Shown: positions 6,130-63,250 of the stretch, in pieces
Position numbering within the stretch: the first letter of the stretch is position 1
How the letters are laid out: each line of letters begins with the position of its first letter
Source of the DNA: Actinacidiphila acididurans
GTDB taxonomy: Bacteria > Actinomycetota > Actinomycetes > Streptomycetales > Streptomycetaceae
Assembly: GCF_016918855.1 (NCBI RefSeq)
Contig: NZ_JADKYB010000017.1
Coordinates: 1-64,000 of the forward strand
DNA length: 64,000 bases
Direction of reading: 5' to 3'
Notes under the pieces: model-generated
Told to the model about the DNA's origin: nothing
Seen by the model: only the letters and a program-made list of their open reading frames with translations
The model's database searches: none
Made by a program: the position numbers and the translations under genes

Positions 6130-8050
<1,921 letters not shown>

Positions 8051-60108: not shown

Positions 60109-62985
<2,877 letters not shown>

Positions 62986-63089: not shown

Positions 63090-63115
63090 AAAAAAGCCCC
63101 TCGCGCAGGAGGGGT
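63090..63115 (-). terminator. intrinsic attenuator in the leuS leader
   Basis: On the minus strand a CCCCTC-GAGGGG stem (plus-strand arms 63097-63102 and 63109-63114; 6-base loop) is followed by CTTTTTTG. It is about 105 bases upstream of leuS and directly downstream of the leader peptide, making it a conditional terminator. A six-U tract is unusual for this GC-rich genome. Confidence 0.85.
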
Positions 63116-63118
63116 GCC

Positions 63119-63144
63119 GCACTGACGGTGTCCGTGGTCAGCGC
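63119..63144 (-). promoter_or_regulatory. pause/alternative hairpin of the leuS leader
   Basis: On the minus strand GCGCTGAC and GTCAGTGC (plus-strand 63137-63144 and 63119-63126) pair over 8 bp with one G-U. The left arm includes the leader stop codon, so a ribosome finishing the leader would disrupt it. It sits immediately before the attenuator. Confidence 0.6.
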
Positions 63145-63176
63145 GGCTCGCTAAGCAGGAGGCTCACAGCTCGCAT
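63138..63176 (-). CDS. leuS leader peptide with three consecutive Leu codons
   Basis: A 12-codon frame reads MRAVSLLLSEPR, with Leu codons CTC CTG CTT in a row. TAACCT (plus-strand 63183-63188 complement) lies six bases before the ATG, so the transcript may start at the ATG itself (leaderless). The following hairpins complete a ribosome-mediated attenuation layout for leuS. Confidence 0.8.
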   Translation of the reverse strand: MRAVSLLLSEPR

Positions 63177-63213
63177 GCGGTCAGGTTACAGCAGCGGTGC
63201 GGAGGGTCGCACC

Positions 63214-63250
63214 GAGGTTCCCCGGGCGGCGGAACCGCCCGGGGAACCTC
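63214..63250 (-). terminator. strong terminator after the sedolisin-like gene
   Basis: A perfect 16-bp stem (plus-strand arms 63214-63229 and 63235-63250) with a 5-base loop starts 14 bases past the protease stop codon. It isolates the protease from the leuS leader. Confidence 0.85.

Follow-up and report, generated by a model that had tools for sequence, protein, structure and literature searches.

A leucine leader peptide, adjoining hairpin and terminator upstream of leuS are conserved through much of Actinomycetota and probably form a transcription attenuator

The stretch of DNA that we analysed (the window) comprises the first 64,000 nucleotides of contig NZ_JADKYB010000017.1 of Actinacidiphila acididurans. 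On its minus strand it carries a leuS gene whose product scores 888 bits against the TIGR00396 leuS_bact model (cutoff 548). About 104 nt separate leuS from the U tract of an intrinsic terminator, T, which is preceded by a first hairpin, P1, and a short leucine-rich open reading frame. The features are as follows:

63183..63188, minus strand: -10-like hexamer TAACCT, separated by 6 nt from the leader ATG (sequence)
63138..63176, minus strand: leader ORF of 12 codons, MRAVSLLLSEPR and stop (translation)
63153..63161, minus strand: Leu codons CTC CTG CTT, the conserved codon being the third, CTT (63155..63153)
63137..63147, minus strand: P1 5' arm GCCGCGCUGAC, which takes in the final codons and the UGA stop (predicted fold and covariation)
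63116..63126, minus strand: P1 3' arm GUCAGUGCGGC, 1 base from the terminator (predicted fold and covariation)
63097..63114, minus strand: stem-loop of the terminator T, CCCCTC-CTGCGC-GAGGGG (terminator scan and covariation)
63090..63095, minus strand: U tract TTTTTT of T (sequence and terminator scan)
60109..62985, minus strand: leuS, leucyl-tRNA synthetase, 958 aa (ORF and TIGR00396)

The initial annotation had described a 12-codon leader before leuS, a hairpin overlapping its stop, a CCCCTC/GAGGGG stem followed by six Us and a TAACCT six bases from the leader ATG, and all of these lie where the list places them. T (the stem-loop, then CTTTTTT) is the sole terminator-like site within the 500 nt scanned, where shuffled sequences would be expected to give 0.1. 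The folding energy of the leader RNA, taken as a single sequence, is ordinary (z = -0.73) and uninformative alone, and a search of the window against Rfam release 15 gave no match above the gathering cut-off. As in attenuators of the trp/leu type, the Leu codons (an LLL run) come just before the first stem, the first hairpin overlaps the end of the leader and an intrinsic terminator stands between leader and leuS.

Attenuation of leuS is known in Streptomyces. Attenuators were predicted for this gene in S. coelicolor and S. avermitilis (Seliverstov et al., 2005; PMC1262725), and the 2021 reannotation of S. lividans TK24 reported leuL2, encoding MRAVRLLLSEPR, as leaderless by RNA-seq, with a hairpin and a U stretch (PMC8079986). 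The element in the window is therefore not new in kind, and these two papers answer the uncertainty of the initial annotation as to how well it is described for leuS in Streptomyces. It has the same gene, a leader peptide with Leu codons and a poly-U terminator hairpin in common with the earlier predictions, which were termed classical candidates; those, however, concerned two species and included an antiterminator, whereas the present element reaches far beyond Streptomyces and a conserved antiterminator was not confirmed. The likeness to leuL2 is closer still, MRAVRLLLSEPR and MRAVSLLLSEPR being one residue apart and the leaderless start, hairpin and U stretch recurring, but leuL2 was described in one strain with a mapped transcript start and the start in the window is predicted. 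Our literature search (open-licence papers) found neither reports outside Streptomyces nor experimental tests of regulation by the leuS leader, and the main text of a Term-seq paper on S. clavuligerus makes no mention of leuS. What our analysis adds is taxonomic breadth, covariation, a fixed CUU codon and a negative result for the antiterminator.

We inspected the upstream regions of 80 named leuS loci, an uneven sample because they were picked as close relatives of the query. The leader peptide has the form MRAVRLLL..PR (mostly MRAVRLLL[S/T][E/G]PR) in all 40 Streptomycetaceae loci read. Variants occur elsewhere, for example MAGVFLLLTGPC (Micromonospora) and MTRRLLLARPC (Geodermatophilus). 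Thirty of these loci served to build a covariance model of P1 and T, which matches 60 of the 80, every time directly upstream of leuS and on the correct strand, and gives no further match at E<=1 in 544 kb. The element is present in Streptomycetaceae (40/40), Micromonosporaceae (9/9), Geodermatophilaceae (3/3), Jiangella (1/1), Occultella (1/1) and Pseudonocardiales (6/7); within the same set it is absent from Aeromicrobium, relatives of Cellulomonas, Actinomycetaceae, relatives of Rhodococcus and Mycolicibacterium, Actinomycetospora and two uncultured lineages. The comparison of upstream regions that the initial annotation had called for came out in its favour, in that Leu codons, short frame and stems are conserved in relatives.

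Whole-genome searches extended this picture. All 150 genomes and all 17 genera searched in the window's family have the element, as do 125 of 296 genomes (52 of 106 genera) of its class; for the phylum the figure is 27/296 genomes, a count that includes the window's family and some cross-matches to ilvB and leuA. When the next gene was checked for 20 distant matches (20 families, one each), it was leuS in 18; of the other two matches, one has an ilvB-type leader (VRTRILVVMQRAG) and one an Ile leader (MTVRQIIF). Some of the 18 encode a LeuS just 38-44% identical to that of the window, and three elements from outside the class (L100, L102, L103) also precede leuS, with products 41-45% identical to the window's. 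On these sequence comparisons, the leuS leader element is conserved through much of Actinomycetota.

The same attenuator is common to LeuS proteins 38-45% identical and to LeuS proteins 61-83% identical to the window's (L100, L102, L103, L146, L147, L149-L152, L154, L156, L157, L159, L163, L165), as if the switch had stayed while leuS diverged or was replaced. Its presence before such deeply diverged types suggests that the switch outlasts changes of the gene that it would control.

This conservation bears on the simplest account of T, namely that it merely ends read-through from the sedolisin-like gene upstream, the short ORF being incidental. That gene is co-directional with leuS, and short ORFs and terminators are both common. 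The leader, CUU, P1 and the -10 are nevertheless conserved across families despite different upstream DNA, the corresponding transcript of S. lividans is leaderless (PMC8079986), and the upstream gene is already followed by a separate palindrome at 63215-63249 that lacks a U tract. We consider it very improbable that T has this role alone. The palindrome itself, AGGTTCCCCGGGCGG-cggaa-CCGCCCGGGGAACCT, is perfect, lies between the sedolisin-like protease gene and the leuS leader, and is likely to be the terminator of the former.

The last Leu codon of the leader is CTT in 58/60 loci, always 5 nt before the GCCG of P1, and in 45 of the 50 sequences of a wider set. CTT is otherwise rare: it does not occur among the 1286 Leu codons of 17 Streptomyces leuS coding sequences and occurs once among 415 in Micromonosporaceae. 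Where the stop comes early (CTT ACC TAG CCGCG; L105, L157), CUU keeps its distance from P1 though the stop has shifted, so that it seems to be the distance from codon to stem, rather than the position of the stop, that matters. With CUU in the A site, the footprint of a ribosome would be expected to extend over about five bases at the start of the P1 5' arm. The promoter signal is equally regular: in 58/60 loci a TANNNT ends with 6 or 7 nt between it and the leader start, whereas the background frequency in the upstream DNA is 0.22% of positions. Given this spacing, which is that of leaderless genes, the leuS transcript of the window is probably leaderless, with the leader ATG as its predicted start.

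The case that the arrangement exceeds chance rests on comparison rather than on folding of the single sequence. Among 50 diverse sequences, 97.2% of cells are paired and 10 of the 16 stem pairs show compensatory changes on both sides; none of 500 shuffles matched this support, and sliding the partners by 1-3 columns lowers pairing to 40-59%. For P1, 95.6% of cells are paired and 5/10 modelled pairs have compensatory changes, and for T the values are 100% and 5/6. These figures come from an alignment fitted to the model, which hence favours the modelled structure; an independently made alignment (A1) has 8 of 30 sequences with a C-G to U-A exchange in P1. The outermost GCC/GGC of P1 is invariant (50/50), the spacing between P1 and T is near-constant at 1-3 nt, and every leuS element retains both T and its U tract. 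The T loop, CUGYGY with Y = C or U, is nearly invariant, although divergent leuS elements carry other loops (AUGCAC, CUUAUCC, CCUUGCGUGC) and ilvB leaders differ too. At the level of sequence, then, the leader, the position of CUU, P1, T, the leaderless promoter signal and the linkage to leuS are all conserved.

The leuS leader is very probably a ribosome-mediated, leucine-responsive transcription attenuator. RNA polymerase would start at the leader AUG, and a 70S ribosome would translate the 12 codons of the leaderless message. With plentiful charged Leu-tRNA, or if the leader goes untranslated, P1 and the adjoining T would fold and transcription would stop before leuS. When charged Leu-tRNA is scarce, the ribosome would wait at the Leu codons, chiefly at the last, rare CUU, and would mask the outer portion of the P1 5' arm; P1 would then stay open, T would fail more often and more leuS would be made. 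The leucine response, the stalling at CUU and the action of P1 on T are what we infer from this anatomy. Published results on related leaders of S. coelicolor count against this reading: mutating leader codons had no effect in ilvB, and leuA leader mutations were at odds with classical attenuation (PMC1262725). Such an attenuator would be a direct handle on the synthetase in antibiotic producers, tying it to leucine supply and tRNA charging, and a single rare codon set at a constant distance from a stem that never varies offers a sharp anatomy for testing attenuation. To our knowledge, few attenuators of aminoacyl-tRNA synthetase genes are known outside Proteobacteria.

How P1 might act on T is less clear from the pairing tests. 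The equilibrium probability of T with 5' masking is near 1 in almost every leuS element, and since the E. coli trp leader behaves likewise, this test cannot discriminate and was dropped. In its place, the transcript was cut before the T 3' arm, with the E. coli trp leader (from NC_000913) as control. The known trp antiterminator was recovered (T 5' arm pairing of 0.31 without a ribosome, 0.62 stalled and 0.01 at the stop), while in leuS a ribosome stalled at the last Leu codon left the T 5' arm no more paired than before (means of 0.21 without a ribosome, 0.15 stalled and 0.30 at the stop). The leuS element thus shares with the E. coli trp, leu and phe attenuators a leader rich in the cognate codon, a stop in or beside the first hairpin and a U-tract terminator, but the cut-transcript test recovered a clear 2:3 antiterminator for trp and none for leuS, and the leuS leader is leaderless. 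The pairing tests used are of a kind that a kinetic or pseudoknotted antiterminator would escape. The claim of the initial annotation that a leaderless Leu leader and intrinsic terminator control leuS gains strong support from the conservation, the covariation and the two earlier reports (PMC1262725, PMC8079986); the classical antiterminator was not found.

When conserved helices were sought systematically from the leader to T, only P1, T and weak 5-bp helices between CGYGC and the loop GYGYG emerged; the latter accept every C/U change and thus have no evidential weight. One further helix deserves attention, in which the P1 3' arm (GCRCGG), once free, would pair with the leading half of the T loop (CUGYGY) ahead of synthesis of the T 3' arm and so delay T, as in classical 2:3 antitermination. 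The geometry suits a ribosome at CUU masking the P1 5' arm, 95.5% of cells are able to pair, the T loop is more often paired in the stalled state (mean 0.46 vs 0.31), and the leuS elements were described as classical attenuators with antiterminators by Seliverstov et al. (2005; PMC1262725). However, its covariation score lies below all 500 shuffles, the elements with GCACGG mostly have C where U would pair with A, and the T 5' arm is unpaired within the loop of this helix, so that T could still form. We regard antitermination by this route as possible but doubtful.

Alternatively, P1 could be a pause hairpin that halts RNA polymerase in the T loop until the leading ribosome melts it, P1 then timing the coupling of the two machines rather than competing by pairing. 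The UGYG of the T loop sits 11-12 nt after the base of P1, which is the geometry of class I pause hairpins such as those of E. coli his and trp. Pausing would also explain the conserved CUGYGY, whose near-invariance with a free Y suits a sequence signal better than pairing, and would be in agreement with the failure to find a base-paired antiterminator in the tests run. Against this stand the other T loops of divergent leuS elements and ilvB leaders noted above, and pausing alone leaves it unexplained how stalling would lower termination. We think it unlikely, though a live alternative. Our own tentative synthesis, which we would not rate as probable, is that of an old attenuator, widespread in Actinomycetota, in which no classical base-paired antiterminator takes part: waiting at the fixed, rare CUU, a ribosome would block the invariant GCC/GGC base of the hairpin abutting T, and this hairpin would act on the polymerase by pausing or coupling.

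The window also holds the leuA leader reported in the initial annotation, MRFGLLLLSCRGEGL at 8031..7984, which is LeuL1 of S. lividans letter for letter. It is doubtful that, as further claimed there, charged Leu-tRNA is sensed at leuA in the same manner. This leader has no typical terminator (PMC8079986), and leuA leader mutations in S. coelicolor gave results inconsistent with classical attenuation (PMC1262725); it is therefore unsafe to treat the leuA leader as the same sensor. The LEU element before leuA (PMC1262725) resembles the leuS leader in being a leaderless, Leu-rich leader that ends in CUUAGC and is followed by a GCCGCG stem, but it lacks a terminator and its Leu codons pair with the leuA Shine-Dalgarno. 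The leuS element falls outside the definition of a LEU element, having a terminator and running from P1 to T, not to a Shine-Dalgarno.

This kinship raises the question of whether the leader acts on leuS mainly via translation or mRNA stability, with T a minor player. Such action has been proposed for actinobacterial leuA LEU elements, the CUUAGC-N-GCCGCG core is common to leuA and leuS leaders, and our model weakly detects leuA/leuC leaders. Yet T with its U tract, absent from leuA elements, is found in every leuS element and shows covariation, and we find a mainly translational or stability effect quite improbable beside the attenuation of transcription favoured above.

Several minor observations concern related leaders. 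The leuS model also detects ilvB leaders (LVLIT and stop, with P1 abutting a terminator) and leuA/leuC LEU elements with CTTAGC-N-GCCGCG (L107, L108, L110, L115; L112, L116), which hints that leaders in Actinomycetota share a design. The match L161 (G576:C103) has a leader reading MTVRQIIF and stop, with P1 and a terminator, does not precede leuS, and is probably an Ile-responsive leader of another gene. Elsewhere in the genome of the window (G000:C22:409247-409382, plus strand; L084) we noted a candidate isoleucine leader with tandem ATT ATT, ending in ALIIGNRHAGPQ and a stop, on which our search of open-licence papers found no report. With its terminator, CCTCTCGC/GCGAGAGG-TTTTTT, it precedes a citramalate synthase gene (TIGR00977), and the core IIG[N/S/R]xHAGPQ with the terminator is conserved in 24/25 same-genus genomes searched (homologues L135-L144).

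Finally, the leuS ribosome-binding region (63002-62982, minus strand) is strikingly conserved in Streptomycetaceae (CGATGGAGCTTTGAGGATCATG) and contains a mini-ORF, ATGGAGCTTTGA (MEL and stop). In several species the leuS ATG is overlapped by the stop of the mini-ORF; this is also true of the window, where the version reads MEYRGR and stop, and such an overlap could provide translational coupling.
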